From: Mesostigma viride
Taxonomy: Eukaryota; Streptophyta; Mesostigmatophyceae; Mesostigmatales; Mesostigmataceae
Assembly: GCA_009746045.1 (NCBI GenBank)
Contig: RPFO01000076.1
Location: 4,041,420-4,105,419 of the forward strand
Length of the DNA: 64,000 bases
Direction of reading: 5' to 3'
Shown here: piece by piece, positions 27,971 to 62,639 of the stretch
Layout of the letters: every line of letters starts with the position of its first letter
Position numbering within the stretch: position 1 is the stretch's first letter
The notes under the pieces: generated by a model
What the model was told of the DNA's origin: nothing
Database searches by the model: none
Seen by the model: the letters and a program-made list of their open reading frames with translations, nothing else
Translations under genes and position numbers: made by a program

Positions 27971-28622
27971 AGTTAGCATTTTGGGCAACCAATATGCTAA
28001 GTGGATACAGTTTGGAAAGACCTTTCCAACGCCGTGCTGACCGCCTGAAACAGACAAGGGACAAGAAAGATATGAGGTCCCGAAGTCCTAGCCGTCCGTG
28101 GCCGACTGGGGTACAGTCCTCTGGTGTAGTGGACAGGACACGTGGCAGGCCGTGCCTGCGCAGGCTTAGCCTGACTATCACGTGACTGTGGTCCACGTAG
28201 ACCAGAGGAGCAGCAGCCTGTGACTGGTGGACTACAGGAACTGGCACAGGTCTGCAAGGATACTAGGCCTTGCAGGCTTGTGACAGGTCCTGTACTTCCT
28301 AGGTTGCAGAGTCTAGGCAAATCCAGTTCGTCCTGCATGGCTCTGCACTGATGCCAGTGGACGTTGAGGATTTGCTTGCCTGCCTGCACGTGCCTCGTCA
28401 CGCCGATGGGAACGAGGAACAACGCAAAGGATATAGCTTGGTCATGGGGGATGACCAGCTATCTTGGCAAGCACGAACCGAGGCTCCCACATTGGACGTG
28501 GAACCGCTCACCGTGGTCGTGGCTTGGTGCACGGGTTAAAAGGTTGCTGCCTTGCAACTTTGGCTCATCCCGTTGTGTGGCGTGAGAGACCAGGAACTCA
28601 CAGTTCTGGCTGCTCGCTAACT
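27971..28622 (+). repeat. 5' LTR of copia A
   Basis: 652 bp, starts AGTTAGCATTTTGGGC and ends GCTCGCTAACT, not the usual TG..CA. It contains a hairpin (TTGGTCATGGGGGATGACCA near 28,440) and a TATA-like GTTAAAAGG at about 28,536. It matches the LTRs at 38,872-39,520, 47,457-48,100 and 56,598-57,241. The 10 nt following it (CGTACTATTG, 28,623-28,632) are the presumed primer-binding position. Confidence 0.88.
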
Positions 28623-28653
28623 CGTACTATTGCATTTCTGTTTGCAAGGTTTC

Positions 28654-29796
28654 ATGTCGGCCGAGGCTCGGGTTACTCACCTGAGTCATCTCCCAGGCGC
28701 GAAGCAGCTCCAGAGTTGCCGGCGCGCGAAGACGCATTCTTCCCCTATATCACCCGTCCAACGCTTCTACATTTGTGCAAGCGGCCCACGTTGCGAGGGG
28801 CCTTGCGGAAGGAGGTTGGGTCGCTGTGTTCGGTAACGCAGCAGGGCCGTCGGCAAACGACCCTGTGGTGATGAGGATTAGGGCGACGACGTCGCCAGGG
28901 GAAACAGGACGGGTCTGCACGGAGCGCCTCGTCGCCATTCGCGACGAAATTGCTTCGTTGATCTACAGTTTAGAAGTTGCGTACCAGGGCGGGCACGTAA
29001 CCATCCAGGCGCTGGACTTAGCGCGTGAAACGCTGGGCCAACTGGTGGCCATCTGTTTAGGTGGAACCAGATTGTATAATCACTGGGTGGCGACAAGCTC
29101 GCTGGGGGAGGGGACCGACGCGTCACATATCATACGGGACGCGCAGACGCGCGAGGCCGATAGCCCGTGGGATTCGGCCGAGGTGGTGGCTCAAACGTGT
29201 GAGCACCTGGTCAACATTCTGATCCAAGAGGCGCGTGGTCACGCCGATCACTGGGTGATCACTACGCGGCCGCCGGGGATTTGGTCGACCTTGGACACTC
29301 CGAGGTTGCAGAGCAGGCCAGGGGCGACTGGGCCGACGGTGACAGTCATCACCGGTCGAGACGTCTCCGACGAGGAGTTCCACGATCAGTTCGTGGACCG
29401 CCAACGGGAATCATAGCCCGTCGTCACACAGATTGACGAGGGTGACGGCACAAACGAGGGATACTCGGCCGGCGCAGGGCAGAGTTAAACATCCCCTTTG
29501 AGCCGGAACACGATTTTGGGGAGATTGGTCGGGGCTCGCGGAACGACCGGCGAGGTGGTGGTAGTCGGTGGGTCAGGAATCTTCAGTGGTATCGCCGTGG
29601 CAGTGCGCCTAGACTGCCGGTAGAGCAGACAGCAGCCGGGAGGCCGGTGAGCCGTGTGCTAGGTCCTTACAACGCGGAGGAGGTCCGCTCAGTTCCACGC
29701 GTGGGGACACCGGTGGCACGCACAGCGCAGGAGCGTGAGGAGGAGGCCATAGCTGAGGAGCATCCAGCGGCTTCTTCCGGCAGCACCAGCGCTTGA
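28654..29796 (+). pseudogene. Copia ORF1 (extra 5' ORF, unknown function), copy A
   Basis: Homologous to the intact ORF1 of copy D (61,489-62,616). Conserved blocks: LAEGGWVAVFGNAAGP, IRDEIASLIYSLEVAYQGGH, AQTREADSPW, CEHLVNILIQEARG, GIWSTLDTPR. The frame is broken before the FVQAAHVARG block and stops early at 29,416. The true end, shared with B and C, is SA-stop at 29,796. The protein is mostly helical with no known domain, and lies 52 nt upstream of gag. Confidence 0.65.
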
Positions 29797-29848
29797 GCCT
29801 GTTTTCCTTGTCTATCGCCTGTTTTGTTTTGCCATCCCACTGTATATA

Positions 29849-31199
29849 ATGCCTCGTGGCAAACCGGGAGACGGCGACAAGGGCGAGATGGAGGCACCGG
29901 CTGGAGCAAGCCAGGAGCCTCGGCAAGACAAGGAGCAGCTGGTGGGGGAGGCGATCCCAGCCAGCGAGGGCGATGGGGGAAAGAGACCAGGCAGCAAGAG
30001 ACGGCACGAAGACTCGGTGGAGGAGGCGCGCAAGGCGCGGGCACTAGGAGCATCTGATGCAATAACGGTGGCGAATGGGCAACCTGCCGTGGAGAAGCGT
30101 AAGAGGGACACCTCCGCTGACGGCAATGGTAAGAGGCCTCACGTGGATGTGCTCTCCCCTGTGCTTGCTGGCCCAAGTGGCGTTGTTACTGTGACACCCA
30201 CTGTGGTGGAGCCGGTGAAGGCGCTGCCAGGGTCGAGACCTCACATGAGTGCAGTCACGCTTATGAATGGACAAAAGCCTCTTAACCCACCACTAGCACA
30301 GGAAGCTAGACAAGTGGCTAGAGGACATGGAGCTGGTTGTGCTCTCCGTGGACCCCACTGTCAACCTAGTGCAAGTGTTTCACTCGTCCACGTGCAACAG
30401 GGACTCGTCAGAGCGTGTCAGGGAAAAGGCTAGGACTGGTGTCAAGGATAAGCTAACCTGGGCACAGTTCCTGGATGGGTTGAGGGAGGAGTTCTCTGAC
30501 AAGGTTCTCAACCTCACCAACTACTATAAACATCAGTATGACACCTTTGAGATAGTGGGCCCTGTGGCAGAGGAATGGGCTAGGCTCAACCGTATCAGGA
30601 CAAGGGGGCCAAGTATGGCTTCCTGGTCACAGATAGGGCCTTGGCAGACTATTTCCTGGACCGTATGGGTTTGAGTGTGGATGGGAGGAACAGTGCCCGC
30701 ATGTTTCTTAACCAGACTGATGGCTCCTTGCGTGCTCTGGAGCTTGTAATCCTCAGCATAAGGAAGCCAGATCCTGCCTGCAAAGCTATCCAGTCCCATG
30801 GCAGCAATGCCACCTCCGCTGTGCAGGGCCAAGGTGATGTCCCCGGGTACCCAGCCCGTGATGGGGCAAGGCCCAACAAGCGTAAGCGCTTCAGGCGCCA
30901 GAGGCAGGGGGCTCAGGGTGGCAAGGGTGCAGGTTCCCAAGGAGGGGTTGGGAGCCAGCAAGCTGGTGGTCAGCAGGGTAAGGGTGGCCAAGGGCAAGGC
31001 AAGGGCCAAGCTCAAGGCAACCAGGGCAAGCAGGGTGGACAGTCTCAGGGAGGCCAGGGAAGCCTGGCAAGGGTGGGGCTGGGTCTGGGAAGAAGGGTGG
31101 AGCATGCTTTGTGTGTGGCAAGGAAGGTCACTGGCGTCGTGAGTGTCCTGACAGGAAGGCCAAGCCTGCTGGGGCAGGGGGCCAGTCGGGCAGCAGTGA
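29849..31199 (+). pseudogene. Copia gag with CCHC knuckle, copy A (frameshifted)
   Basis: Starts MPRGKPGDGDKGEMEAP with a Lys/Arg-rich linker. The capsid-like part follows in later frames (LEDMELVVLSVDPTVNLVQV; DKLTWAQFLDGLREEFSDK; DYFLDRMGLSVDGRN), then a Gly/Gln-rich stretch and the knuckle CFVCGKEGHWRREC near 31,105-31,150. It ends at TGA 31,197-31,199 followed by CTAG. Gag packages the element RNA into virus-like particles. At least three single-base indels; two of them are shared with copy C. Confidence 0.78.
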
Positions 31200-34100
31200 C
31201 TAGCTACATCATCCCCTGTAAATAGTCAATCACCCCTTGGGGAAGGTGTGTTGGATGTACATAAGGATGGGGGTGTGCCCCTTGTGCAGCACCAAGGGTG
31301 TAAAGATGTTGTTCTTCCACTGGATTGCAATAACAATGCTGCAGCTGAATTCCCTATGCCTCATGCAGGTGGTGGGTCTCCAGCAGGTGCTGGCCTGGAG
31401 GGCCAAAGGACCTTGCTGGAAGGGCCTGGAGCGGTCCAGGGAGCAGGACCTGGCTTGGGGAGTCAGGATGGCCTGCAGGAAGGCCCTGGAACCTCAGGAG
31501 TGGATCATGTGTCCCCACACACGGTTCAGACGTCTCGCCAGGTCAGTACTGACAGAGTGCTGAGCTATGCTGAGGCTGGCCATAGATTGCATCATATGTT
31601 TGGGCATTCTGGGCAGGCAGCAATGTTTGCTTGGAAGCTAGGTAGGGAGCCTTTGTGGGAGGCATGCCAGGCTGCTGCTGAGAACTGTGGTTGCCAGGAG
31701 AATGCTGTTCACCCACCTCAGTCCCATGCTAGGGAGCCTGCTAGGGAGCGTGGCGACATCCAGATGGATATCCAGCATATCAGGGGCTTGTATATATTGG
31801 TGGCAGTGGACAGGTTCAGCAGATATAGGCTGATAGACGTTCTGCCTGGTATGCAGGAGCACCACTTGTTGTTGGGTATGAAGGCCCTGATCCCAGGCTT
31901 TGGGGTGTGCAAGAGTGTGCAGGCAGACTTGCAGTTTGACTGTTTGCTCAAGCATCAGGACCAGCTGCCTTGTAAGCTGGTAGTAGTCCCCAGGGAGAGT
32001 CATGGGCAGCAAGGGGCTGTAGAGAGATCCATACGTGAAGTGAAGACAGTGGTGCTAGCAGCAGAGTCAGTGCCACTTGTGGCATCTGCCTTAGAGAGGG
32101 CAGCCTGGTGTAAGGGGATAGAAGAGCAGCTGAACCACAGGGTTAACTATTACTTTGATGGTGTGGCTGTCTCTCCCCTGGCCCTGCAGTATAGCTTGTT
32201 ACCTGAGAACGTGGTGCAGGCCAGTCTTAGGAAGGCAGATAGGTTATTTGCCCAGCTGAGACGTAAGGACAAGAACTGGAATGTGCTGAGGCCTCAGGTG
32301 GGGCTGAAGGTCAGGATGTGGAAGGAACCATCTATTCCAGGCAAGCGGGGGAAGTGGCAGGATGGGGTTGTCACTCGTGTGGAAGAAGCTAACAGATCTT
32401 GCCTGGTGGCTTTGGAAAAGGATCCAAGGCACGTGTACAGGTTGTCCTGGGCTCATGTCAAGGAAAGAAGGCCACATGCAATCTGGCCTGCAGACGGGCC
32501 AGGCCCTCCCAGCTGGGTTGAGGAGCCAGGCCAGAGCCAGGCAGCAGCAGCTAACAATCCTCTGGTAGTGGATGATGGTCTGTCCCTGCTGGAAGATGAC
32601 GAGCAGGAGGAGGCTGCTGAAGCAACTGTCACAAGGCCAGAGGGGACGGGGCAGCCACCTAAGGCCCGGGGGCCTCTCATGGCGGACGTCATCCGAGCAC
32701 TCATGCGCAGCAAACATGATCCCAAGGTATCCAAGCTCACGGGGTGGGGGTCGTGCTGGGCAGCTACAATGGAGGTAGATACCAACTCACAGGTGTCTGT
32801 CATCAGGGAAGAGGATGCTGTAGGCTTACAGATGTCCCATCCCAGTTGCCTTGCTGTGTCTGATTTCTCAGGAAAGGTGTCCATGAAGATCCTTGGGGAA
32901 GTGAGTGTGCCTATCTTAGGGGTGCCCACCACGTTCTGTGTGGTAGAGGGCTATAAGGGGCCTGCCATTCTGGGACAGAACTTCTTGTGCATGCCAGGGG
33001 TTACTTTGACCTCTGATGAGTTGGCACTAGAAGGCAGGGGCAGCCTCCCCCTTGAAAGATATCACTATTCCCAGGGTCTTGCAGTGGCGGTGAAGGCTGT
33101 TAGGAGTCAGCCAGCTGAGGGTCCTCAGAGTCAGGAGCCCATAGCTGAGGACTTGTTGATAATCCCAACCACCTTTGATCCAAGGCAGTTAGGGGTAAAC
33201 AGGTACCAGATAGCTGCTCACAGTCCTATTCCCTGGCGCCAGCTAGTCGAGATGATGCAGAGCCCCAAGATGGCTAAGGCATGGACTCTTGGCTTTGTTG
33301 CTTCTGGGCATGAGTGGATAGTTTCCAACTGTGCAGAACCTGTGGATGAGCTGCCAGAAGTTCACCAGCTGCTCAGATTGATGTTTGTCCTCAAGCTCAA
33401 GGAGGTTGATGGTGTCCAGGTGCCACATGTCAGACCAGTTGTAACCGAGTATCATGGCACTGGCCAGTTGTTAGATGAGGAGCTCTATACTCCAGGGATG
33501 CTGCATGACACGTGGAGGATTCTGCTGTGTATATTTCTGTCTTTTCTGGTTAAGGGTGTGCCCTATAGCTCTGTGCTGATTGATTTCAAGAGGGCTTTTC
33601 TCAAGGGTGACCAAGATCAGGCTAGGCAGACTTGGAGAGATATCCCTCCTTTCTTTGTGACTGTACCTGCTGTATGGAGAGCAGAGATAAAGGCCAGGTA
33701 CCTGAGAATTCTGAAAGGGTTGGAAGGTCTCAGGTCCAGTCCCATTATCTGGAGAAAGAGCCTAGAGAAATTCTTGAAGAATACTTGTGGGTTCTGTGTC
33801 TCCAGTGGATCCCTGTTTGTTCCAAGGGTCCTACAATGGCCTTCCTGTCTTTGCCTCACTGCATGGTGATGACCTGCATCTCATAGGTCCACCAGACTGG
33901 GTTGAGGCTGTCTTGGCTAAGATCCAGAAGCGGTTTGAGCTGGGTAAGATACAGCACATGGTGGAGAATGAGCCTATGGTCTTCTGTGGCATGCAGGCTA
34001 CGTTGTTCCAAGCCAAGGGCTCGTGGTTCATCAGGATGGAGGGTGGTAAGGACTACCCACAGCAGATTGTAGATGCATTGCAGGAGCCCATCACGCAGGC

Positions 34101-34764
34101 TAGGTGTGCTACCATCAGGGGCATGCTGGCATGGCTTGCAAGTATATGTGCCCCTGACTTGCTGGTTCTGAGTCGACTTACTGATTCCCAGCTGGTTGAG
34201 GTGGGTGCTGAGAGTGTGGTGCAGGCTGTCATGATGTCTCCCCCTCTCATACTGGGTCCTGTGGATTTGTACAAGCCCCTTGACATGGTTCTCTATGTAG
34301 ACAGTTCTATGGACAATAGGAAGGTCACAGAGGTCAGGGGCCGGGCAGCAGCATTAGTTACCCTGGAGCAAGATCACACCTCACTTGTTACCTGGTACAG
34401 TCGGTTACAGAACAGGGTTACACCCAGCAGTGATATTGCTGAGTGCAGGGCAATCTGTGAAGGGCTGCATACTGCTCTTTACTTGAGGGAGCTCTTCTAC
34501 CAGCTATGTCAAGTGGCTTCCTGTAGGTTGCAGCTGCACACACTGGTGAGGACTGATAGCATGGGCATGGTGCAATTTGTGCACAGGCAGCAGGCCAGGA
34601 GCAGGGACCTTGACTACTTGTTGCTCAAGGAGATGTCCTACCTAGCTCACATTAAACATGTGCCTGGTGTGGACAACCCTGCAGATGCCCTCACCAAGCT
34701 GGAGGAGAAGGCGGAGAGGCAGTACCCCCTGCTCCGTGGGCTCATGGACAGTTACGTTAAATAG
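31200..34764 (+). pseudogene. Copia pol: integrase - protease-like - RT - RNase H, copy A
   Basis: In the same frame as the gag stop, so it is probably reached by readthrough. Integrase: zinc-binding HHMFGHSGQ, catalytic region MDIQHIRGLYILVAVDRFSR, VQADLQFD, then ESHGQQGAVERSIREVK (32,000-32,040). Protease-like: MEVDTNSQVSVI at about 32,770 and AILGQNFL. RT: VLIDFKRAFLKGD and LHGDDLHLIG near 33,865. RNase H: YVDSSMDNRK, DIAECRAICEGLHT, RTDSMGMV, DNPADALTK. A 2-base loss near 33,795 splits the ORF (873 + 325 codons). The end is replaced by the palindromic insertion, giving a stop at 34,764. Confidence 0.88.
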
Positions 34765-35630
34765 TGCCGGAACCTTTTGCCGCCTGAGGCAAATCGGTCC
34801 GTAACACTATTTTGCCCGGAATAACCACTTCCGAGCACCCAAGTTAATTCGGCCGAATTAACTTGGGTGCTCGGAAGTGGTTATTCCGGGCAAAATAGTG
34901 TTACGGACCGATTTGCCTCAGGCGGCAAAAGGTTCCGGCACTATTTAACGTAACTAAAACCTGGCCTCGTGGAGGGGGGACGAAGAGCCCGAGACATCCG
35001 CCTAGGCCGCTGAGCACGCACCACTAAATGCGCCGGAGCTGCCTCAGTGAGGATTCGAACCCCTGACCTCCAAGGTGCACAGGTTTTAGTTACGTTAAAT
35101 AGTGCCGGAACCTTTTGCCGCCTGAGGCAAATCGGTCCGTAACACTATTTTGCCCGGAATAACCACTTCCGAGCACCCAAGTTAATTCGGCCGAATTAAC
35201 TTGGGTGCTCGGAAGTGGTTATTCCGGGCAAAATAGTGTTACGGACCGATTTGCCTCAGGCGGCAAAAGGTTCCGGCACTATTTAACCTAACTAAAACCC
35301 GTGCAACTTGGAGGTCAGGGGTTCGAATCCTCACTGAGGCAGCTCCGGCGCATTTAGTGGTGCGTGCTCAGCGGCCTAGGCGGATGTCTCGGGCTCTTCG
35401 TCCCCCTCCACGAGGCCAGGTTTTAGTTAGGTTAAATAGTGCCGGAACCTTTTGCCGCCTGAGGCAAATCGGTCCGTAACACTATTTTGCCCGGAATAAC
35501 CACTTCCGAGCACCCAAGTTAATTCGGCCGAATTAACTTGGGTGCTCGGAAGTGGTTATTCCGGGCAAAATAGTGTTACGGACCGATTTGCCTCAGGCGG
35601 CAAAAGGTTCCGGCACTATTTAACGTAACT
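34750..35630. mobile_element. Palindromic composite element, family 1 (P-S-P-S'-P dimer)
   Basis: Inserted in copia A; TGGAC is duplicated on both sides (34,745-34,749 and 35,631-35,635) and occurs once in copy C at the same site. Three 206-bp palindromes P (34,750-34,955; 35,088-35,293; 35,425-35,630), each with 103-bp arms and no spacer, flank a 132-bp module S (34,956-35,087) and its inverted copy (35,294-35,424). P starts AGTTACGTTAAATAG and ends with the complement. S holds GGTTCGAATCC, a Pol III B-box, on the minus strand and S' on the plus strand. No ORF. Confidence 0.92.
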
Positions 35631-35635
35631 TGGAC

Positions 35636-36437
35636 CCCTTACACGGGCGGCCATAGAGACCAGGCCTTGCTTCAGCTTGGGTGCCCCCAGTGGGCTGCTT
35701 GACCAAAGTACCAAGTGGTGACTGGTGCTTACTGGTTGACAGCCGGTCCTTCAGGGTTAGGTACACCCTCCTGGACAGGAGTTGGTATGGAATGTCACTC
35801 CTACCAGCTGAGAATCATGCCTGGCCCTCCCCATGGGGTTCAGAAGAGTCGCCAGGACTTAAGTCGACGCCTTTGGCCTCAAACAGTTAGGCCATGCAAG
35901 GGCAACCCGAATGTTGGTTCTTACAGGTTGCTGTACATATGTTTTCTAGTGCTTGTTTCCAACCTGTTGCTAATAAAGAACCTGGTTGTGTGACCATGTG
36001 GAACATGGTTGCCAGGGGGCCACATTCTGGGTTATATAATGCTTGAATAAAACATAATCATGTCATGTCATTCTCATGTTGTTCCCATGGTTGTCATGTT
36101 TCTCTTGTGTAAAGTTCCAGGTCACCTATAAACCTGGAGGTTGGGGTGGGGTTCAATTCCCCAGCAGAGCCACAGCCTGGCATGAGTGATTCCTGGGCTT
36201 AACACCCAGTGAAGACATGGGCTCCCCAATGAGGCAGTATTTGTATAGGTGCTACCTGGGTCTCTTTGAGCATAAAAGGGACAGGCTGGCCAAGGCGGGC
36301 GCCATAAGAACGGGCGCCTGTGATAACTGTGAAAGATCAGGAACTCACAATAGTACGTTCTTGGCATCCTGTAATCCCAGCCATTGGACTAGGTAATGTG
36401 CCTTGACTTTAATCTAGCACCAAGTTCCCAACCAAAG
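35636..36437 (+). other. 3' region of copia A, with tRNA-like T-arm and PBS-complementary stretch
   Basis: Conserved in C and D. It contains TGGGGTTCAATTCCCCA (about 36,147-36,163), a perfect 5-bp stem with 7-nt loop like a tRNA T-arm. It also contains a CCAGG..CCTGG stem just before, a GGGCGCC..GGGCGCC block near 36,296-36,318 and polyadenylation-like AATAAA signals at 35,974 and 36,045. CAATAGTACG at 36,348-36,357 is complementary to the 10 nt after the 5' LTR. No ORF of note. Confidence 0.6.
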
Positions 36438-36468
36438 TTCACAGTTCTGGCTGCTCGCTAACTGATGG

Positions 36469-43495: not shown

Positions 43496-43916
43496 TCCCA
43501 CCCGGATAGAAGTAGTACCGGGTGGGAATAATAAGCCTTTCTAGCGTTTGGCAGTGTGATACCCGGAATGTGCTCATATATTCGCGCTTTGTTGTCTGGC
43601 TAGGACGTTTTCTGGAATGCGATGTACTGGCAGTAGGCGTTCCTACGTGTACAATGCACACATGCTCTACTGACAGGGTCAGCTGCTCGCACTACTATGG
43701 TAAAACATGGAGGGGAAGAGTAAAGATGCTGGAGGGAGCCCCGGGCCGTGGAGCAGAGGAAGGACTCTGACTCACGACTGCCCGATGATGTCATGGTCAC
43801 CTGGCATGCAAGTGGTGGCTCGATTCCGTTTAATTGTGCCACCAAGATAAGAGATTTGGTGAGCTATGCTCGTTTTATCTATTACTAACCTGCTGAGCGG
43901 AGAATGAGTTAGGTTA

Positions 43917-44177
43917 AATAGTGCCGGAACCTTTTTGCCGTTGGGGCAAATCGGGCCGGAACACTATTTTGCCCGGAATAACCACTTCCGAGCACCCAAG
44001 TTAATTCGGCCGAATTAACTTAGGTGCTCGGAAGTGGTGAATCCGGGCAAAATAGTGTTCCGGCCCGATTGGGGCCGAATTAACTTAGGTGCTCGGAAGT
44101 GGTGAATCCGGGCAAAATAGTGTTCCGGCCCGATTTGCCCCAACGGCAAAAAGGTTCCGGCACTATTCCACCTAACT
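43917..44177. mobile_element. Solo palindrome of composite family 1
   Basis: A diverged copy of the 206-bp palindrome (AGTTAGGTTAAATAGTGCCG at the start, complement at the end) without an S module. Part of the right arm (CCGAATTAACTTAGG..GGCCCGATT) is duplicated. It resembles a solo LTR left by recombination between P copies. No matching 5-bp duplication is visible. Confidence 0.8.
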
Positions 44178-44389
44178 CACTTAGCATGGCACAAAAAATC
44201 AGGAAAATCGGGACACTGAGCATGACACTTGAGAACTCTCAAGTGCATGAAGACAGGACACTTATGCATTATATGTGGATGCAGAAACGATGCAGTTGAC
44301 ACACATGTTCATTGGAAATAAATAAATAAATAAATAAAGTGTGACAAGCACACAACAAGTTACATCAATCCATCATTACCAGGAATATA
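44178..44389. other. Short intergenic stretch with AAAT microsatellite
   Basis: An AATAAATAAATAAATAAA run at about 44,318-44,337. No gene feature; it lies just downstream (minus strand) of the transposase-like gene. Confidence 0.5.
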
Positions 44390-45103: not shown

Positions 45104-45762
45104 ATTTGCGCAGCAACTCGTCAGCAGAGCTTGTGAGCTCCTGGTCCTTGCCGGCTGGAATGACCCTAGGCTGCTGGCTAGCAACCTTTATCCTCACACC
45201 AGGCCTACGACCCTCGATAGGTTCGCCACTCGTCGTGACGACCAAGGTTCGTGTGTGAAGACGCTCGTTGCCTCGTTGAGCCTCGAGCTATATGCAACCT
45301 CGTTCCATCCTTGTTCCTCGGTCATGAGCAACGCTGGGCAACGCTACATTGCCAGAGCCTCGTATCGCTGCCTTGCATCCTCGTTGCAGGCAGTATACAG
45401 GAATCTCTGGCTATCCTGTGTCTAGGACAGCACAGGACCTGCCACAGTCCTGCAAGGACGTACATCCTTGCAGACCTGCTGGCTGGTTACTGGCTTCTAC
45501 TAGTAGCCACAGTACCGTTGAGCCCTCAGTACACTGTGTCCCAGTCACGTGAGAGTCCAGGCTAAGCCTGTGCAGGCACGGCCTGCCACGTGTCCTGTCC
45601 CGACTATGCCCTGAGTGTGCCCCGCCCTCGCCCACCGGTCGGCAGTACTTCGGGACTTGATAACTTTCTAGTCCCTTGTCTGTTCTAGGCGGTTGACACG
45701 GCGTTGGAAAGGTCTCCTCAACCTGCATCCATCTAGCACATTGGTGCCCCAATATGCTAACT
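45104..45762 (-). repeat. 3' LTR of copia D
   Basis: 659 bp. Read on the minus strand it starts AGTTAGCATATTGGGGCACC and ends GCTGCGCAAAT, so its 3' terminus differs from the TAACT of A-C. It is preceded by polypurine CAAGAAAGGGTTGG (plus 45,763-45,780 complement), the presumed PPT. Confidence 0.85.
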
Positions 45763-46697
45763 CCAACCCTTTCTTGTTTTGGAGCTTGGACCAGCCTGAG
45801 AACCTATCAGCCACTGTCCCCACAAGCCTTTAGACATCTGATCCCTCCCAGAGACCAGACCTGCCTTTTCTTTTGGAACCTGAGGTGCCTCCAAATATTA
45901 GCTAGGCCTGCTCATTGGTTCAAAGGTTGCCCTCTGACCCACATGACATCCCAACCCTTTCTTTGGGAACCTGGTGTAGATTAAAGTTAGGTCTTCACTT
46001 AGTCAGAGGAGTTTGGATAGAGGAGTCCATGAACGTACTATTGTGAGTTCCTGGTCATCCAGTTATCACAGGCGCCCGTTCATATGGCGCCCGCCACGGA
46101 GCCTCCTTTATCTTTTAAATCCTTCCAAAGACTGAGAGAGCCCTGACAAATGTTAGCCAACACATGGGGAGCCCATGTCCTCACTGAGTCTCACTCAGGA
46201 TTCATACATGCCAGGCTGAGGTCAGCTGGGGAATCGAACCCCACCCCATATCCTCCAGGTTTGGATCAGCTCCTGGAACTGAGCATCACAAACAACAAGA
46301 CATGACAATAACAAGATTATGTTTTATTATAAAGGAGTATAACCCATAGTGAGGCCCCTGGCAACCACGTCCAACATGGTCACACAACCAGGGATTTTAT
46401 TAGCATGCAACAGGTTGGTTACAGAGAATATATACAAATGTACAGCAACCTGTTAGAGCCAACACTTGGGCTGCCCTTGCAGGGTCCATTCCATGAAGAC
46501 CCAAGGCCCATTACAAAGTCCTTAAGACTCTTCTGCAGCTCCATGACAGAGCCAGGCGAAATTCTCAGCCAGGGGAGTGACTCCACCCTGACCCCTGTCC
46601 AGCAGAGTGTGTCTGAACTCTGAAGGACCTGCTGTCAGCCACCACGTGGCTGCCCAGCCCACTGGGATGCCTCCCACCTAGAGCAAGGCTGTTTGGT
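45763..46697 (-). other. 3' region of copia D
   Basis: Counterpart of the 3' region of A and C: TGGGGTTCGATTCCCCA T-arm-like hairpin (minus strand, near 46,230-46,250), GGGCGCC..GGGCGCC block near 46,070-46,095, AATAAA signals (46,320-46,400). CAATAGTACG on the minus strand (plus 46,034-46,043) is complementary to the 10 nt after the 5' LTR. Confidence 0.6.
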
Positions 46698-47451
46698 CTA
46701 CTCTGGCCCTCCCCCCTTGGAGGCCATGAGCCCACGAAGCAAAGGGTATTGCAGCTCAGCCTTCTCCTCCAGCTTGGTGAGAGCATCTGCAGGGTTGTCC
46801 ACGCCAGCCACATGTTCAATGTTAGCTAAGCAAGACATTTCCTTGAGCAACAAATAATCAAGGTCCCTGCTCCTGGCCAGCTGCCTGTGCACAAACTGCA
46901 CCATGCCCATGCTGTCAGTTCTTACCAGTGTGTGCATCTGCAACCGACAGGAAGCTACTTGACATAGCTGGTAAAATAGCTCCCTCAAGTAAAGAGCAGT
47001 ATGAAGCCCTTCACAGATTGCTCTGCACTCAGCAATGTCACTGCTGGGAGTTACCCTGTTCTGCAACCGACTGTACCAGCAGACCAGAGAGGACTGTTCC
47101 TGCACCAGGGATATTAATGCTGCTGCACGGCCCCTGACCTCTGTGACTTTCCTACTATCCATAGAACTGTCCACATAGAGCATCATGTCAAAAGGCCTGT
47201 ACAAATCCAAAGGACCCAGCATGAGAGGGGAAGACATGCGAACAGCCTCTACCACTCTCTCAGCACCCACCTCAACCAGTTGGGAATCGGTCAACCGACT
47301 CAGTACCAACAGGTCAGGAGCACAAATGCTGGCCAGCCATGCCAACATACCTCGTATTGTTGCACATCTGGCCTGGGTGATGGGCTCCTGCAAGGCATCT
47401 ATGATCTGCTGAGGATAATCCTTACCACCCTCCAGCTGGATGGACCATGTA
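46698..47451 (-). pseudogene. Copia D pol 3' part: end of RT and RNase H
   Basis: Minus-strand frame: TWSIQLEGGKDYPQQIIDAL, RNase H motifs YVDSSMDSRK, DIAECRAICEGLHT, RTDSMGMV, DNPADALTK, ending in KGGGPE-stop at 46,698. It is separated from the RT part at 57,242 and above by copy C and continues it exactly (CCCTG duplicated). Confidence 0.88.
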
Positions 47452-47456
47452 CCCTG

Positions 47457-48100
47457 AGTTAGCATTTTGGGCAACCAATATGCTAAGTGGACGCAGTTTG
47501 GAAAGACCTTTCCAACGCCGTGCTGACCGCCTGAAACAGACAAGGGACGAGAAAGATATCAAGTCCCGAAGTCCTAGCCATCCGTGGCCGACTAGGGTGC
47601 AGTCCTCTGGCATAGTGGACAGGACACGTGGCAGGCCGTGCCTGCACAGGCTTAGCCTGATTATCACGTGACTGTGGTCCACGTAGATCAGAGGAGCAGC
47701 AGCCTGTGACTGGTGGAATACTGGAGCTGGCACAGGTCTGCAAGGATACTAGGCCTTGCAGGCTTGTGACAGGTCCTGTACTTCCTAGGTTGCAGAGTCT
47801 AGGCAAATCCAGTTCGTCCTGGCTCTGCACTGATGCCAGTGGACGTTGAGGATTTGCTTGCACGCCTGCACGTGCCTCGTCACACCGATGGGAACGAGGA
47901 ACAACGCAAGGATATAGCTTGGTCATGGGGGATGACCAGCTATCTCGAAAAGCACGAACCGTGGGTGCCACCTTGGTCGTGGAAGTGCCCATTGTGGTCG
48001 TGGCCTGGTGAACAGATTTAAGGTTGCTGCCTTGCAACATTGGCTAAGACGCGCTGTGAAATATCAAGAGCTCACATACGCTGGGGAGCTCTTTCTAACT
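47457..48100 (+). repeat. 5' LTR of copia C
   Basis: Starts AGTTAGCATTTTGGGC, ends GAGCTCTTTCTAACT; hairpin TTGGTCATGGGGGATGACCA near 47,919. It is followed by CGTATTATTG at 48,101-48,110, which differs at one base from A, B and D. Confidence 0.92.
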
Positions 48101-48125
48101 CGTATTATTGTCTCCTTACTTCTTC

Positions 48126-50612
48126 ATGTCCAACGTGCCGAGGGAACAGGCCATTGAGCCTTCGCAAAGCCAGAGCTCGCAGCCGCAGCTTCGGGTAGGA
48201 GCCCCGGAGCGATCACGACCTTTTCATCCCTACGCTCATCCGAGCACCGCATCAACCTTCGTCCAGGCGGCGTACCTGGCAAGGGGGCTGGCGAAGAAAG
48301 GTTGGGTAGCAGTTTGCGGAACTGCAGCAGGGCCGGCGGCGAGAGTTAAGTAATGCAATACGCATTACTTTTGCATACTTGCAAGTATGCAAAAGTAATG
48401 CGTATTGCATTACTTAACTAAAATTGGGCCGCGTGGGGAAATCCGGCGTTCCGCACACACCGCTCGTTACCGAGGTGACTCGATTAATTACGACTCGGCT
48501 ATTCCCAGCCTCACGCCGTAATTCCTATTTCGACTTGGCCTACCCGGCCTCCGCCAAACATAGAAATCCACAAATATTTCGACTTGGCCTCCCAGGCCTA
48601 CCCGCCGCAAATATTTCCGTGCCTCCGAGAGGATTCGAACCCGGTACCCCAGGAGCGAACGCCAATCTTAGTTAAGTAATGCAATACGCATTACTTTTGC
48701 ATACTTGCAAGTATGCAAAAGTAATGCGTATTGCATTACTTAACTAAAATTGGGCCGCGTGGGGAAATCCGGCGTTCCGCACACACCGCTCGTTACCGAG
48801 GTGACTCGATTAATTACGACTCGGCTATTCCCAGCCTCACGCCGTAATTCCTATTTCGACTTGGCCTACCCGGCCTCCGCCAAACATAGAAATCCACAAA
48901 TATTTCGACTTGGCCTCCCAGGCCTACCCGCCGCAAATATTTCCGTGCCTCCGAGAGGATTCGAACCCGGTACCCCAGGAGCGAACGCCAATCCAAGTAT
49001 GCAAAAGTAATGCGTATTGCATTACTTAACTAAGATTGGCGTTCGCTCCTGGGGTACCGGGTTCGAATCCTCTCGGAGGCACGGAAATATTTGCGGCGGG
49101 TAGGCCTGGGAGGCCAAGTCGAAATATTTGTGGATTTCTATGTTTGGCGGAGGCCGGGTAGGCCAAGTCGAAATAGGAATTACGGCGTGAGGCTGGGAAT
49201 AGCCGAGTCGTAATTAATCGAGTCACCTCGGTAACGAGCGGTGTGTGCGGAACGCCGGATTTCCCCACGCGGCCCAATTTTAGTTAAGTAATGCAATGCG
49301 CATTACTTTTGCATACTTGCAAGTATGCAAAAGTAATGCGTATTGCATTACTTAACTAAGATTGGCGTTCGCTCCTGGGGTACCGGGTTCGAATCCTCTC
49401 GGAGGCACGGAAATATTTGCGGCGGGTAGGCCTGGGAGGCCAAGTCGAAATATTTGTGGATTTCTATGTTTGGCGGAGGCCGGGTAGGCCAAGTCGAAAT
49501 AGGAATTACGGCGTGAGGCTGGGAATAGCCGAGTCGTAATTAATCGAGTCACCTCGGTAACGAGCGGTGTGTGCGGAACGCCGGATTTCCCCACGCGGCC
49601 CAATTTTAGTTAAGTAATGCAATGCGCATTACTTAACTGCGAGCGACCCCATTGTGATGCAGATTGAGGCTTCGACAGCTCCCGGCGAATTGTCGCGAGA
49701 GGCCGTCGAAAAGTTTGTGTCAATACGGGACGAGCTGTCCTCGACCATTTACGGTCTGGAGGTGGCTCACCAGGGCGGGCACGTGACCGTGTCGCAGCTG
49801 GATTTGGCGCGGGAGGCACTGGGCCAGATCGTGGCCATTGGACTGGGAGCAGCGCGACTGTTCAACCATCAGGTGGCAACGTCTGTGCTGGGCGCGGGAG
49901 TTGAAGTCCCGGACGTGATCAGGCAAGCGCAGGCGCGCGAAGTCGACAACCCCTGGTCGTCGGCAGAGGTGGTTTCACAAACGTGCGAACACCTCGTGAA
50001 CATTCTTTTGCAGGAGTCACGGGGCAACGCAGACCGGTGGGTGATAACCACACGACCATTTGGGATTTGGTCAACACTCGACACACCGCGGGCGGCGGAA
50101 CCAGACGCACACGATCCAGTGGTCGAGGTCATCACGGGTCGGGAGGTAACGCCAGAAGACTTCCATTACCAATTCGTTGATCAGCCAGAGGGGATCATCG
50201 AACGTTCATCTCAGCAGATAGATCAAGGCGACGGTACCACAGAAGGGTACGCTGCACGACGTCGTGCTGAGCTGCACGTCCCGCAAGAGCCCGAACACGA
50301 CTACGGTGGTCGTGGGGCTTGCAACGACAAGCGGGGTGGTGGAACGCGGTGGGTGAGGAACCTTGAGTGGGATCGCTCGAGTGGGAGCGAGCCCCGGATC
50401 CCAGTGGAGAAGTCTGCAGACGGGCGACCCGTTAGCAGAGTGTTTGGACCCTACGCCGACGGGAGGACGCCGCTGGCAGCGACGAGGAGCGGCCAGAGAC
50501 GCCCATCGCAGCCACTGCTCAAGAGCGAGAGCTGGAGGCAGCGAACCAAGCAGGTGCTGAGTCAGTAGCTGGGACGGTGCCCACGGCATCCCCCAGCGAC
50601 ACCAGTGCTTGA
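48126..50612 (+). pseudogene. Copia ORF1 (extra 5' ORF), copy C, interrupted
   Basis: ATG 48,126 opens MSNVPREQAIEPSQSQ, then TASTFVQAAYLARGLAKKGW. At 48,344 it is interrupted by the palindromic composite; removing that plus one GCGAG copy (1300 nt) restores the frame. It then continues IVMQIEASTAPGELSREAVE, IRDELSSTIYGLEVAHQGGH, VSQTCEHLVNILLQESRG, SSQQIDQGDGTTEGYAARRR. An indel near 50,480 shifts it; the other frame ends in SPSDTSA-stop at 50,612. No known domain; mostly helical. Confidence 0.75.
48344..49638. mobile_element. Palindromic composite element, family 2 (mirror-symmetric tetramer)
   Basis: GCGAG is duplicated at 48,339-48,343 and 49,639-49,643. The order is P 48,344-48,419 (76-bp palindrome, 38-bp arms), S 48,420-48,669, P 48,670-48,745, S 48,746-48,993, half P 48,994-49,031, inverted S 49,032-49,281, P 49,282-49,357, inverted S 49,358-49,607, short P 49,608-49,638. 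S is 250 bp and carries GGTTCGAATCC plus CCTCTCGGAGGCA on the minus strand (plus strand in the inverted copies). P starts AGTTAAGTAATGC and ends TAACT. The ORFs of 83-86 codons inside S are repeat artefacts. Confidence 0.93.
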
Positions 50613-50663
50613 GTCAGTTCTTCCTTTTCCTTCGCCTTTATTGTTGTGTCCCCACTGTATATA

Positions 50664-52016
50664 ATGCCTCGTGGCAAACCGGGCGACGGCGACAAGGGCG
50701 AGGAGGGGGCACCGGCTGGAGAGAGCCAGGAGCCTGGGAAGGGCAAGGAGGCGCTGGTGGGAGAGGCGATCCCAGCCAGCGACGGCGATGGGGGAAAGCG
50801 ACCAGGGAGCAAGAGGCGACACGAAGACTCGGTGGAGGAGGCGCGCAAGGCGCGGGCGCTGGGGGCATCTGATGCAATAACGGTGGCGAATGGGCAACCT
50901 GCCGTGGAGAAGCGTAAGAGGGACCCCTCTGCTGACGGCAATGGTAAGAGGCCTCATGTGGATGTGCTCTCCCCTGTGCCTGCTGGACCAAGTGGTGCTG
51001 TTGTTGTGACACCCGCTGTGGTGGAGCCAGTGAAGGCGCTGCCAGGGTCGAGACCTCACATGAGTGCTGTCACTGTTATGAATGGACAAAAGCCTCTTAA
51101 CCCACCACTAGCACAGGAAGCTTTGGACAAGTGGCTAGAGGACATGGAGCTTGTTGTGTTCTCCGTGGACCCCACTGTCAACCTAGTGCAAGTGTTTCAC
51201 TCGTCCACGTGCAACAGGGACTCGTCAGAGCGTGTCAGGGAGAAGGCTAGGACTGCTGTCAAGGATAAGCTAACCTGGGCACAGTTCCTGGAAGGGTTGA
51301 GGGAGAGTTCTCTGACAAGGTTCTCAACCTCACCAACTACTACAAGCACCAGTATGACACCTTTGAGATAGTGGGCCCTGTGGCAGAGGAATGGGCTAGG
51401 CTCAACCGTATCAGGACAAGGGGGCCAAGTATGGCTTCCTGGTCACAGATAGGGCCTTGGCAGACTATTTCCTGGACCGTATGGGTTTGAGTGTGGATGG
51501 GAGGAACGGTGCCCGCATGTTTCTTAACCAGACTGATGGCTCCTTGCGTGCTCTGGAGCTTGTAATCCTCAGCATAAGGAAGCCAGAACCTGCCTGCAAG
51601 GCTATCCAGTCCCATGGCAGCAATGCCACCTCCGCTGTGCAGGGCCAAGGTGATGTCCCCGGGTACCCAGCCCGTGATGGGGCAAGGCCCAACAAGCGTA
51701 AGCGCTTCAGGCGCCAGAGGCAGGGGCTCAGGGTGGCAAGGGTGCAGGTCCCCAAGGAGGGGTTGGGGGCCAGCAAGCTGGTGGTCAGCAGGGTAAGGGT
51801 GGCCAAGGGCAAGGCAAGGGCCAAGCTCAAGGCAACCAGGGCAAGCAGGGTGGGCAGCCTCAGGGAGGCCAGGGGAAGCCTGGCAAGGGTGGGGCTGGGT
51901 CTGGGAAGAAGGGTGGAGCATGTTTTGTGTGTGGCAAGGAAGGTCACTGGCGTCGTGAGTGTCCTGACAGGAAGGCCAAGCCTGCTGGGGCAGGAGGCCA
52001 GTCTGGGCAGCAGTGA
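50664..52016 (+). pseudogene. Copia gag with CCHC knuckle, copy C (frameshifted)
   Basis: MPRGKPGDGDKGEEGAPAGE start after TGTATATA. The capsid-like part is LEDMELVVFSVDPTVNLVQV. A frame is lost near 51,305 and again near 51,414 (the latter as in copy A). A Gly/Gln-rich segment follows, then CFVCGKEGHWRREC at about 51,922-51,965, ending QSGQQ and TGA 52,014-52,016 followed by CTAG. Confidence 0.8.
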
Positions 52017-55000
52017 CTAGCTACATCATCCCCTGTAAATAGTCAATCACCCCTTGGGGAAGGTGTGCTGGATGTACATAAGGACGGGGGTGTGCCCCTT
52101 GTGCAGCACCAAGGGTGTAAAGATGTTGTTCTTCCACTGGATTGCAATAACAATGCTGCAGCTGAATTCCCTATGCCTCATGCAGGTGGTGGGTCTCCAG
52201 CAGGTGCTGGCCTGGAGGGCCAAGGGACCTTGCTGGAAGGGCCTGGAGCGGTCCAGGGTGCAGGGCCTGACTTGGGGCGTCAGGACGGCCTGCAGGGAAG
52301 CCCTGGAACCTCAGGAGTGGATCATGTGTCCCCACACACGGTTCAGACGTCTCGCCAGGTCAGTACTGACAGAGTGCTGAGCTATGCTGAGGCTGGCCAT
52401 AGATTGCATCATATGTTTGGGCATTCTGGGCAGGCAGCAATGTTTGCTTGGAAGCTAGGTAGGGAGCCTTTGTGGGAGGCTGCCAGGCTGCTGCTGAGAA
52501 CTGTGGTTGCCAGGAGAATGCTGTTCACCCACCTCAGTCCCATGCTAGGGAGCCTGCTAGGGAGCGTGGCGACATCCAGATGGATATCCAGCATATCAGG
52601 GGCTTGTATATATTGGTGGGGTGGACAGGTTCAGCAGATACAGGCTGATAGACGTTCTGCCTGGTATGCAGGAGCACCACTTGTTGTTGGGTATGAAGGC
52701 CCTGATCCCAGGCTTTGGGGTGTGCAAGAGTGTGCAGGCAGACTTGCAGTTTGACTGTTTGCTCAAGCATCAGGACCAGCTGCCTTGTAAGCTGGTAGTA
52801 GTCCCCAGGGAGAGTCATGGGCAGCAAGGGGCTGTAGAGAGATCCATACGTGAAGTGAAGACAGTGGTGCTAGCAGCAGAGTCAGTGCCACTTGTGGCAT
52901 CTGCCTTAGAGAGGGCAGCCTGGTGTAAGGGGATAGAAGAGCAGCTGAACCACAGGGTTAACTATTACTTTGATGGTGTGGCTGTCTCTCCCCTGGCCCT
53001 GCAGTATAGCTTGTTACCTGAGAACGTGGTGCAGGCCAGTCTTAGGAAGGCAGATAGGTTATTTGCCCAGCTGAGACGTAAGGACAAGAACTGGAATGTG
53101 CTGAGGCCTCAGGTGGGGCTGAAGGTCAGGATGTGGAAGGAACCATCTATTCCAGGCAAGCGGGGGAAGTGGCAGGATGGGGTTGTCACTCGTGTGGAAG
53201 AAGCTAACAGATCTTGCCTGGTGGCTTTGGAAAAGGATCCAAGGCACGTGTACAGGTTGTCCTGGGCTCATGTCAAGGAAAGAAGGCCACATGCAATCTG
53301 GCCTGCAGACGGGCCAGGCCCTCCCAGCTGGGTTGAGGAGCCAGGCCAGAGCCAGGCAGCAGCAGCTAACAATCCTCTGGTGGTGGATGATGGTCTGTCC
53401 CTGCTGGAAGATGACGAGCAGGAGGAGGCTGCTGAAGCAACTGTCACAAGGCCAGAGGGGACGGGGCAGCCACCTAAGGCCCGGGGGCCTCTCATGGCGG
53501 ACGTCATCCGAGCACTCATGCGCAGCAAACATGATCCCAAGGTATCCAAGCTCACGGGGTGGGGGTCGTGCTGGGCAGCTACAATGGAGGTAGATACCAA
53601 CTCACAGGTGTCTGTCATCAGGGAAGAGGATGCTGTAGGCTTACAGATGTCCCATCCCAGTTGCCTTGCTGTGTCTGATTTCTCAGGAAAGGTGTCCATG
53701 AAGATCCTTGGGGAAGTGAGTGTGCCTATCTTAGGGGTGCCCACCACGTTCTGTGTGGTAGAGGGCTATCAGGGGCCTGCCATTCTGGGTCAGAACTTCT
53801 TGTGCATGCCAGGGGTTACTTTGACCTCTGATGAGTTGGCACTAGAAGGCAGGGGCAGCCTCCCCCTTGAAAGATATCACTATTCCCAGGGTCTTGCAGT
53901 GGCGGTAAGGCTGTTAGGAGTCAGCCAGCTGAGGGTCCTCAAGGTCAGGAGCCCATAGCTGAGGACCTGTTGATAATCCCAACCACCTTTGATCCACGGC
54001 AGTTAGGGGTAAACAGGTACCAGATAGCTGCTCACAGTCCTATTCCCTGGCGCCAGCTAGTCGAGATGATGCAGAGCCCCAAGATGGCTAAGGCATGGAC
54101 TCTTGGCTTTGTTGCTTCTGGGCATGAGTGGATAGTTTCCAACTGTGCAGAACCTGTGGATGAGCTGCCAGAAGTTCACCAGCTGCTCAGATTGATGTTT
54201 GTCCTCAAGCTCAAGGAGGTAGATGGTGTCCAGGTGCCACATGTCAGACCAGTTGTAACCGAGTATCATGGCACTGGCCAGTTGTTAGATGAGGAGCTCT
54301 ATACTCCAGGGATGCTGCATGACACGTGGAGGATTCTGCTGTGTATATTTCTGTCTTTTCTGGTTAAGGGTGTGCCCTATAGCTCTGTGCTGATTGATTT
54401 CAAGAGGGCTTTTCTCAAGGGTGACCAAGATCAGGCTAGGCAGACTTGGAGAGATATCCCTCCTTTCTTTGTGACTGTACCTGCTGTATGGAGAGCAGAG
54501 ATAAAGGCCAGGTACCTGAGAATTCTGAAAGGGTTGGAAGGTCTCAGGTCCAGTCCCATTATCTGGAGAAAGAGCCTAGAGAAATTCTTGAAGAATACTT
54601 GTGGGTTTTCTGTGTCTCCAGTGGATCCCTGTTTGTTCCAAGGGTCCCACAATGGCCTTCCTGTCTTTGCCTCACTGCATGGTGATGACCTGCATCTCAT
54701 AGGTCCACCAGACTGGGTTGAGGCTGTCTTGGCTAAGATCCAGAAGCGGTTTGAGCTGGGTAAGATACAGCACATGGTGGAGAATGAGCCTATGGTCTTC
54801 TGTGGCATGCAGGCTACGTTGTTCCAAGCCAAGGGCTCGTGGTTCATCAGGATGGAGGGTGGTAAGGACTACCCACAGCAGATTGTAGATGCATTGCAGG
54901 AGCCCATCACGCAGGCTAGGTGTGCTACCATCAGGGGCATGCTGGCATGGCTTGCAAGTATATGTGCCCCTGACTTGCTGGTTCTGAGTCGACTTACTGA

Positions 55001-55586
55001 TTCCCAGCTGGTTGAGGTGGGTGCTGAGAGTGTGGTGCAGGCTGTCATGATGTCTCCCCCTCTCATACTGGGTCCTGTGGATTTGTACAAGCCCCTTGAC
55101 ATGGTTCTCTATGTGGACAGTTCTATGGATAATAGGAAGGTCACAGAGGTCAGGGGCAGGGCAGCAGCATTAGTTACCCTGGAGCAAGATCACACCTCAC
55201 TTGTTACCTGGTACAGTCGGTTGCAGAACAGGGTTACACCCAGCAGTGATATTGCTGAGTGCAGGGCAATCTGTGAAGGGCTGCATACTGCTCTTTACTT
55301 GAGGGAGCTCTTCTACCAGCTATGTCAAGTGGCTTCCTGTAGGTTGCAGCTGCACACACTGGTGAGGACTGATAGCATGGGCATGGTGCAATTTGTGCAC
55401 AGGCAGCTGGCCAGGAGCAGGGACCTTGACTACTTGTTGCTCAAGGAGATGTCCTACCTAGCTCACATTGAACATGTGCCTGGTGTGGACAACCCTGCAG
55501 ATGCCCTCACCAAGCTGGAGGAGAAGGCGGAGAGGCAGTACCCCCTGCTCCGTGGGCTCATGGACCCCTTACACGGGCGGCCATAG
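52017..55586 (+). pseudogene. Copia pol: integrase - protease-like - RT - RNase H, copy C
   Basis: Same frame as the gag TGA. Integrase 52,370-53,330 with one-base losses near 52,482 and 52,618, then intact: VQADLQFD, ESHGQQGAVERSIREVK. Protease-like MEVDTNSQVSVI at about 53,586 and AILGQNFLCMPG near 53,790. A one-base loss near 53,908. The RT-RNase H frame then runs 53,970-55,586: VLIDFKRAFLKGD, LHGDDLHLIG (54,677), YVDSSMDNRK, DIAECRAICEGLHT, DNPADALTK, ending LHGRP-stop. The protease lies between integrase and RT. Confidence 0.9.
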
Positions 55587-56597
55587 AGACCAGGCCTTGC
55601 TTCAGCTTGGGTGTCCCCAGTGGGCTGCTTGACCAAAGTACCAAGTGGTGACTGGTGCTTACTGGTTGACAGCCGGTCCTTCAGGGTTAGGTACACCCTC
55701 CTGGACAGGAGTTGGTGTGGAATGTCACTCCTACCAGCTGAGAATCATGCCTGGCCCTCCCCATGGGGTTCAGAAGAGTCGCCAGGACTTAAGTCGACGC
55801 CTTTGGCCTCAAACAGTTAGGCCATGCAAGGGCAACCCGAATGCTGGTTCTTACAGGTTGCTGTATATATGTTTTCTAGTGCTTGTTTCCAACCTGTTGC
55901 TAATAAAGAACCTGGTTGTGTGACCATGTGGAACATGGTTGCCAGGGAGCCACATTCTGGGTTATATATTGCTTGAATAAAACATAACCATGTCATGTCA
56001 TTCTCATGTTGTTCTCATGGTTGTAATGTTTCTCTTGTGTGAAGTTCCAGGTCACCTATAAACCTGGAGGTTGGGGTGGGGTTCAATTCCCCAGCAGAGC
56101 CACAGCCTGGCATGAGTGATTCCTGGGCTTAACACCCAGTGAAGACATGGGCTCCCCAATAAGGCAGTATTGTGTAGGTGCTACCTGAGTCTCTTTGAGC
56201 ATAAAAGGGAAAGGCTGGCCAAGGCGGGCGCCATAAGAACGGGCGCCTGTGATAACTGTGAAAGATCAGGAACTCACAATAATACGTTCTTGGCATCCTT
56301 TAATCCCAGCCATTGGACTAGGTAATGTGCCTTGACTTTAATCTAACACCAAGTTCCCAAGGAAAGGTTGGGAGCTGACCAAGGGGTCAGGGGATAACCT
56401 GGGGTGACCTCTGATTCACTGGCCAGTACACCTAGCCTGGTCCAAGGGCGTATATGTTGTTTCCCAAAAGGAGGCAGGACCCTGGGCCCTATCAGGTCTG
56501 ATCAACCCCAAGGGACCAAGCGGTCTGTGGCTGAGTGGGCACAAGCAAGGTTAGGCTTGTTTCAAGCTGGTCCAGCTCCAAAAGAAGAAAGGGTTGG
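55587..56597 (+). other. 3' region of copia C with tRNA-like T-arm and PBS-complementary stretch
   Basis: TGGGGTTCAATTCCCCA T-arm-like hairpin near 56,076-56,092, GGGCGCC blocks at 56,226-56,247, AATAAA signals near 55,903 and 55,976. CAATAATACG at 56,277-56,286 is complementary to CGTATTATTG after the 5' LTR. It ends in the purine-rich AAAAGAAGAAAGGGTTGG just before the 3' LTR. Confidence 0.65.
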
Positions 56598-57241
56598 AGT
56601 TAGCATTTTGGGCAACCAATATGCTAAGTGGATGCAGTTTGGAAAGACCTTTCCAACGCCGTGCTGACCGCCTGAAACAGACAAGGGACGAGAAAGATAT
56701 CAAGTCCCGAAGTCCTAGCCATCCGTGGCCGACTAGGGTGCAGTCCTCTGGCATAGTGGACAGGACACGTGGCAGGCCGTGCCTGCACAGGCTTAGCCTG
56801 ATTATCACGTGACTGTGGTCCACGTAGATCAGAGGAGCAGCAGCCTGTGACTGGTGGAATACTGGAGCTGGCACAGGTCTGCAAGGATACTAGGCCTTGC
56901 AGGCTTGTGACAGGTCCTGTACTTCCTAGGTTGCAGAGTCTAGGCAAATCCAGTTCGTCCTGGCTCTGCACTGATGCCAGTGGACGTTGAGGATTTGCTT
57001 GCACGCCTGCACGTGCCTCGTCACACCGATGGGAACGAGGAACAACGCAAGGATATAGCTTGGTCATGGGGGATGACCAGCTATCTCGAAAAGCACGAAC
57101 CGTGGGTGCCACCTTGGTCGTGGAAGTGCCCATTGTGGTCGTGGCCTGGTGAACAGATTTAAGGTTGCTGCCTTGCAACATTGGCTAAGACGCGCTGTGA
57201 AAGATCAAGAGCTCACATACGCTGGGGAGCTCTTTCTAACT
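56598..57241 (+). repeat. 3' LTR of copia C
   Basis: 644 bp, AGTTA..TAACT, nearly identical to the 5' LTR. Its right edge abuts CCCTG and the interrupted RT of copy D. Confidence 0.92.
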
Positions 57242-61426: not shown

Positions 61427-61488
61427 TTATAGAATACACAGAAAACACACGCAGATATGGCCGCTGGAACCCACTCAGGCTCACGCAC

Positions 61489-62616: not shown

Positions 62617-62639
62617 GAAAGCGTGGAAGCAATAGTACG

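Follow-up and report, generated by a model that had tools for sequence, protein, structure and literature searches.

Within the 64,000-nucleotide stretch of Mesostigma viride DNA analysed here (the window), a young Copia element (copy B) is interrupted at 48344-49638 by a composite of palindromes (P) and S units, and the locus raises the question of whether this is a mobile element of a class of its own and, if so, how it is copied and inserted. A preliminary description had given its layout as P-S-P-S-halfP-S'-P-S'-shortP, with 76-bp P, 250-bp S, a GCGAG duplication on either side and outer ends reading AGTTA..TAACT, and we recovered all of these features (Table 1). The two halves of the composite form 606-nt arms with a complementarity of 99%.

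Table 1. Positions in the window of the parts of the family 2 composite, of the family 1 composite and of the resident Copia elements.
Feature	Position	Strand	Remarks
Target-site duplication, left copy	48339..48343		GCGAG
Outer P	48344..48419		perfect 76-bp palindrome, AGTTA..TAACT, LTR-like end
S unit 1	48420..48669	-	250 bp, tRNA-like B box on minus strand
Second P	48670..48745		perfect 76-bp palindrome
S unit 2	48746..48993	-	248 of 250 bp
Half P	48994..49031		at inversion point, right arm only, 38 bp
S' unit 3	49032..49281	+	B box GGTTCGAATCC begins S'+29; ends CCAATTTT
P with one arm mismatch	49282..49357		76 bp, G for A
S' unit 4	49358..49607	+	
Short P	49608..49638		31 bp, AGTTA..TAACT, without inner 45 bp of P
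Target-site duplication, right copy	49639..49643		GCGAG
Family 1 composite	34750..35630		P-S-P-S'-P, P 206 bp, S about 132 bp, duplication TGGAC, within Copia A
Copia A	27971..36463	+	ends AGTTAGC..GCTAACT, duplication GATGG, 3' LTR mostly missing
Copia B	47457..57241	+	LTRs 99.7% identical, ends AGTTAGC..CTAACT, duplication CCCTG, proposed integrase donor
Copia D	45104-63293	reverse	LTRs 99.1% identical, duplication GGATT, broken by Copia B

Once joined, the flanks of the composite align with Copia copy A, and no gap marks the place of the insertion. The length added is 1300 bp, no multiple of 3, and in copy A an ORF (28775-29416) spans the homologous site; as had been proposed, excision of the composite would likely restore the copia ORF1 frame. 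A search of the window for AGTTA..TAACT with equal outer 5-mers returned five pairs, namely the two composites, two Copia elements and a pair at 42900/56257 that looks accidental, and the same rule gave 2 matches altogether on 30 mononucleotide shuffles.

The other composite of the window represents a second family (family 1; that at 48344-49638 is family 2), and for each an empty counterpart exists, at 55561-55565 in Copia B for family 1 and in Copia A for family 2. A further empty site, at 21087-21091, lies opposite the family 1 locus L055. The window also holds a decayed family 1 P without S at 43905-44179; within it, 44008-44135 is a tandem duplication of 65 bp, and no 5-bp duplication was found beside it. 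The two families had been described as sequence-unrelated and independent, but they are not wholly unrelated, and their independence was not supported. In both, P begins with AGTTA and has TTTT at position 26, and the S blocks can be aligned over the tRNA-like block and over their far end. A third family with the same plan emerged from 229 pattern matches (control pattern, 0); it rests on two loci (L074 and L075), at which a 5-bp duplication was looked for and not found. Because features of P and S are common to all three, we consider the families related.

We then asked how widely such composites occur in the M. viride assembly (439.9 Mb, 2243 contigs). The core common to families 1 and 2, GGTTCGAATCCTCNNNGAGGCA, has 1131 exact matches, and its reversed control pattern 0. 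Family 2 S gave 102 matches at 98-100% identity (40 of 164 first-look candidates scored); for family 1 S there were 1209 candidates, of which 40 were scored and all 40 were at 100%, so that this sample favours the youngest copies. After merging allelic or duplicate contigs by one matching flank (120 bp at 90%), family 2 was reduced from 44 loci to 36 sites and family 1 from 27 to 26. The earlier claim of a real class of mobile element turned on there being other insertions with 5-bp duplications, and these are many: AGTTA..TAACT ends with a 5-bp duplication were found at 47 of the 62 distinct sites (family 2, 24/36; family 1, 23/26). At the remaining 15 an exact duplication is missing, many of them being visibly cut off at one end. 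In the first family 2 set the duplication was present in 25 of 40 places, and with lengths of 4 to 8 tried, the longest match was 5 in each. The composites form a large group that has been active recently. A satellite array was rejected, since the copies occupy 62 distinct sites with duplications. Nested insertion as the origin of the multimers was likewise rejected for the units seen, whose inner junctions consist of P alone with no duplication. When the flanks of the 27 family 1 loci were compared with the window alone, few matched it, which is not a fair test of a preference for Copia. The search of plasmids returned none similar to the composite, and that of viral contigs no exact match to a 23-base S pattern. 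Separately, a family 2 monomer at locus L034 (1400-1780), with a 52-bp P on both sides, has flanks that are inverted (GACAACCCCG / CGGGGTTGTC) and not directly repeated; CGGGGTTCT also follows the family 2 loci L010 and L038.

The ends of the composites resemble those of the Copia elements around them. From 40 scored LTR matches out of 1692 candidates in the genome, we took ten pairs spaced as in a full element; nine of these full-length copies have AGTTAGC..CTAACT with an exact 5-bp duplication, and one lacks the duplication. The terminal bases and duplication length of the composites are thus those of the resident Copia elements, with the exception of Copia D, which starts with AGTTAGC but has GCAAAT rather than TAACT at its 3' end; the bases in common between composite and Copia ends amount to about 5 bp. 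Because of this match, insertion in trans by a Copia integrase is likely, P then serving the composites as an LTR-like end. As for the coding capacity of these elements, the ORF at 31248-33869 gave Pfam matches to rve (E 0.01) and RVT_2 (E 0.024), both below the cut-off, and that at 53970-55586 to RVT_2 (3.6e-5); the weak matches follow the Copia order, integrase before reverse transcriptase. The latter ORF is 100% identical to an M. viride protein over 68% of the query. It is also 87% identical over 58% to a eukprot protein of Prorocentrum lima, by its name presumably a dinoflagellate, a likeness that would reflect either horizontal transfer or contaminating sequence in that data set. Copia elements with termini other than TG..CA are known elsewhere, as stated in the part of PMC5659011 cited here.

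Beside P, we found no TGG-type primer-binding motif common to the three families on either strand. The Copia element has a polypurine tract; before P none was found, the sequences ending in ..GGCCAGGTTTT, ..GGCCCAATTTT and ..GGCTAGGTTTT or, on the other strand, in ..CACAGGTTTT, ..CGCCAATCTT and ..CAAGGTCTT. Among the other repeats of the window, a 55-bp unit is repeated in tandem about 25 times at 4798-6166 (96% matches) and a 63-bp unit eight times at the edge (1-503). Two ORFs at 16662-19363 match the RVT_1 reverse transcriptase and represent a retroelement type other than Copia.

Neighbouring units have a preferred polarity. Of the 1131 core matches, the first 100 form 55 clusters, in which 28 junctions were divergent, 15 direct and 2 convergent; for 28 against 2 the binomial p is about 9e-7, with shared ancestry and allelic copies not corrected for. 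Simple inverted dimers with their B-box ends together (+-) were found at 10 and 12 sites, that is, at 22 of the 62, and the opposite arrangement (-+) at 0 and 0. Longer forms occur (+++-, ++- and ++--), and convergent junctions were seen at L063, L019/L022 and L044. Dimers with a P52 or P64 centre recur at several sites, suggesting that ready-made dimers may multiply, so that the polarity counts are partly dependent. Six of the ten family 2 inverted dimers are heterotypic, the S allele of one half differing from that of the other, as is one of the eight family 1 dimers in which both units are full, by the single frequent variant. Since the S alleles differ, simple self-priming of one molecule is excluded for the six, and intramolecular snap-back as the origin of all dimers was rejected. 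The heterotypic dimers would fit either the pairing of two cDNAs or the multiplication of ready-made dimers. The turn-back at L016 falls within S and leaves a loop of about 12 nt.

These data bear on the possibility that the composites are MITEs or fold-back DNA transposons, P or P-S being the terminal inverted repeat, the 5-bp duplications the work of a DDE transposase and the inverted dimer the basic form. Such an element would accommodate the inverted repeats at the ends, the frequency of inverted dimers and the lack of a primer site or polypurine tract beside P. However, P-S-P monomers with 5-bp duplications exist (L050, L056, L066 and L076), the ends and duplication length match those of the resident Copia elements, and symmetric P ends would not lead one to expect polar inverted junctions; we therefore regard a DNA transposon as unlikely.

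The palindromes themselves were compared in 62 family 1 P of 206 bp, taken from 78 P spans with the duplicate locus L049 omitted. Mismatches per 103 positions averaged 0.58 within a P, 1.44 between the P of one composite and 2.61 between composites, and 40 of the 62 are perfect palindromes. Thirteen variants are present in both arms, with 76 cells against 36 one-arm cells. The family 2 P variants GCGATAC/GTATCGC, ATCCTTGCAAGGAT, P52 and P78 are likewise perfect palindromes changed in both arms. Because arm variants mostly change together, the arms are normally copied from each other. P64 combines one arm of P52 with one of P76. With allelic copies counted, it was seen in nine places, and only between + and - units, at the centre of inverted pairs; since the unlike arms sit at these centres, hybrids of this type mark joins between different molecules.

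An ordinary chromosomal process could also account for part of this, with ready-made dimers multiplying and with template switching or cruciform repair during replication keeping the palindromes perfect. The heterotypic dimers speak for it, as does the recurrence of one P52 or P64 centre from site to site, and quasi-palindrome correction is known to favour perfect palindromes; correction during ordinary DNA replication could be what maintains the likeness of the arms. On its own, however, such a process gives no account of the precise AGTTA..TAACT ends with 5-bp duplications and leaves the one-way polarity unexplained, and we judge it improbable.

We next consider the S units. On S' the B box GGTTCGAATCC begins at +27 in family 1, +29 in family 2 and +26 in family 3, and lies outside P. 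On the B-box strand S' starts with AAAACC, AAGATT or AAGACC in families 1, 2 and 3, and it ends in TTTT in the copies measured from the three families, except for TTTC at the family 3 locus L074. As for the TTTT in P, at L075 it appears to stand at position 26 of the central P and lies some 6 bp further in within an outer P, and the P of L074 has none. The tRNA-like B box and the TTTT runs suggest a pol III transcript of S, and in family 3 the sequence that precedes the B box might be likened to the variable arm found in type II tRNAs. No A box was recognised in S; ARAGORN detected no tRNA gene within the window, and no Rfam family reached its gathering score there, and thus no known RNA family. 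Matches to miRNA models at a relaxed threshold were rejected, being far below the gathering score and reflecting the perfect hairpin; at relaxed Rfam scores there was no hammerhead ribozyme either, only other hairpin models. The fold of S is modest (z -2.2 and -1.4). In family 2 S (48420-48669) the predicted fold shows three hairpin modules that resemble one another, their stems containing GGCC and with AAGTCG or GAGTCG alongside, possibly a protein-binding or packaging signal.

Taken together, we consider it probable that the composite is a non-autonomous parasite of a Copia LTR retrotransposon. Pol III would transcribe S in the outward direction, from its B-box side, and a reverse transcriptase would copy the transcript into cDNA, two steps that we hold to be the likelier course. 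For the inner P to be copied, read-through would be needed, since TTTT at the end of S' should stop pol III before P. The self-complementary 3' end of the first-strand cDNA, within P, may then, at slightly less than even odds and as the least certain of the steps, anneal to the end of another cDNA or to itself and prime second-strand synthesis, such that neither a tRNA primer site nor a polypurine tract would be needed. The arms of P would thereby become copies of each other and units would be joined B-box end to B-box end, after which the Copia integrase would insert the product via its AGTTA..TAACT ends with a 5-bp duplication. The preliminary description had credited these elements with an amplification mechanism of their own; judging from the anatomy, this stands in part, as the palindromic ends and polar inverted dimers make replication look unusual, whereas insertion is, by ends and duplication, probably that of Copia. 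If our reading is right, the integrase of an LTR retrotransposon can be hijacked with about five shared terminal bases, and LTR-type cDNA might be finished without tRNA priming or a polypurine tract. The young copies, in their number, offer a natural test bed for the formation and upkeep of palindromic ends and for the origin of inverted dimers, and they identify a large group of pol III-type repeats in a streptophyte alga of an early-diverging lineage.

A more conventional reading would make the composite a TRIMp3, with P an ordinary LTR, S the internal part, tRNA priming and strand transfer as usual, arrays arising by LTR recombination and inversions by later rearrangement. The LTR-like ends, the 5-bp duplications and the B box are as expected, and direct P-S-P-S-P arrays have their like in Cassandra, as far as the cited part of PMC7215508 goes. 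Against this, none of the three families has a conserved TGG-type primer site or a polypurine tract beside P, the promoter lies outside a P that is palindromic, and inverted dimers of one polarity predominate, so that we find an ordinary TRIMp3 quite unlikely. Fold-back chimaeras of long reads are hardly credible, for although the assembly is PacBio-based (PMC6947507, in the part cited) and several allelic or duplicate contigs are among the loci, the elements have defined ends, the 5-bp duplications recur at most sites, empty sites exist and the same layouts return at unrelated sites.

The composite that we propose as a Copia parasite can be compared with several known systems. Like a TRIM, it has at both ends a P with AGTTA..TAACT and a 5-bp duplication, P being also its own inverse; a TRIMp3 carries its pol III promoter inside the LTR, whereas here the B box is outside P. 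We file the composites beside TRIMp3, as behaving like a Copia-dependent non-autonomous element. Helenus, a tRNA-like pol III TRIM of the TRIMp3 type, is likewise short and non-coding with a tRNA-like promoter, has 5-bp duplications in plants and fungi and is proposed to depend on Copia; the passages cited place its tRNA-like part inside ordinary LTRs, with both PBS and PPT (Kojima 2024, PMC10886601). The composite differs in its B box outside a palindromic P, in having no recognised PBS or PPT and in its common inverted dimers. Cassandra is also a pol III-type LTR-derived element with LTR-sharing tandem arrays, but the excerpted account gives it a 5S promoter inside the LTR, direct arrays and a TGG-type primer site (PMC7215508). 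Retrozymes are small, non-coding LTR-type elements without proteins of their own, which according to the portion cited have hammerhead ribozymes, PBS and PPT, 4-bp duplications and a Ty3-type partner (PMC4918200); lacking a hammerhead, the composite is not a retrozyme. Fungal GalEa Copia elements and Tf1-type self-priming share the absence of a tRNA primer site and a hairpin beside the LTR; in the part of the source cited, these elements are autonomous, with a short internal hairpin and neither palindromic LTRs nor inverted dimers (PMC5445492). In the open-access literature searched, we found no palindrome-ended TRIM with inverted dimers and no such element in Mesostigma. In parvovirus rolling-hairpin replication, terminal palindromes act as primers and give rise to inverted dimers and tetramers; these dimers form at both ends, which alternate, and no 5-bp duplication is made, so that the parallel is one of mechanism only. 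By this analogy, we tentatively suggest that the composites may form a distinct class of retrotransposon parasite, in which palindromic repeats would serve as primers, pol III-derived cDNAs, made by a borrowed reverse transcriptase, would pair by their palindromic 3' ends into inverted dimers and larger multimers in a rolling-hairpin-like manner, and a Copia integrase, requiring nothing beyond AGTTA..TAACT ends, would insert the product.
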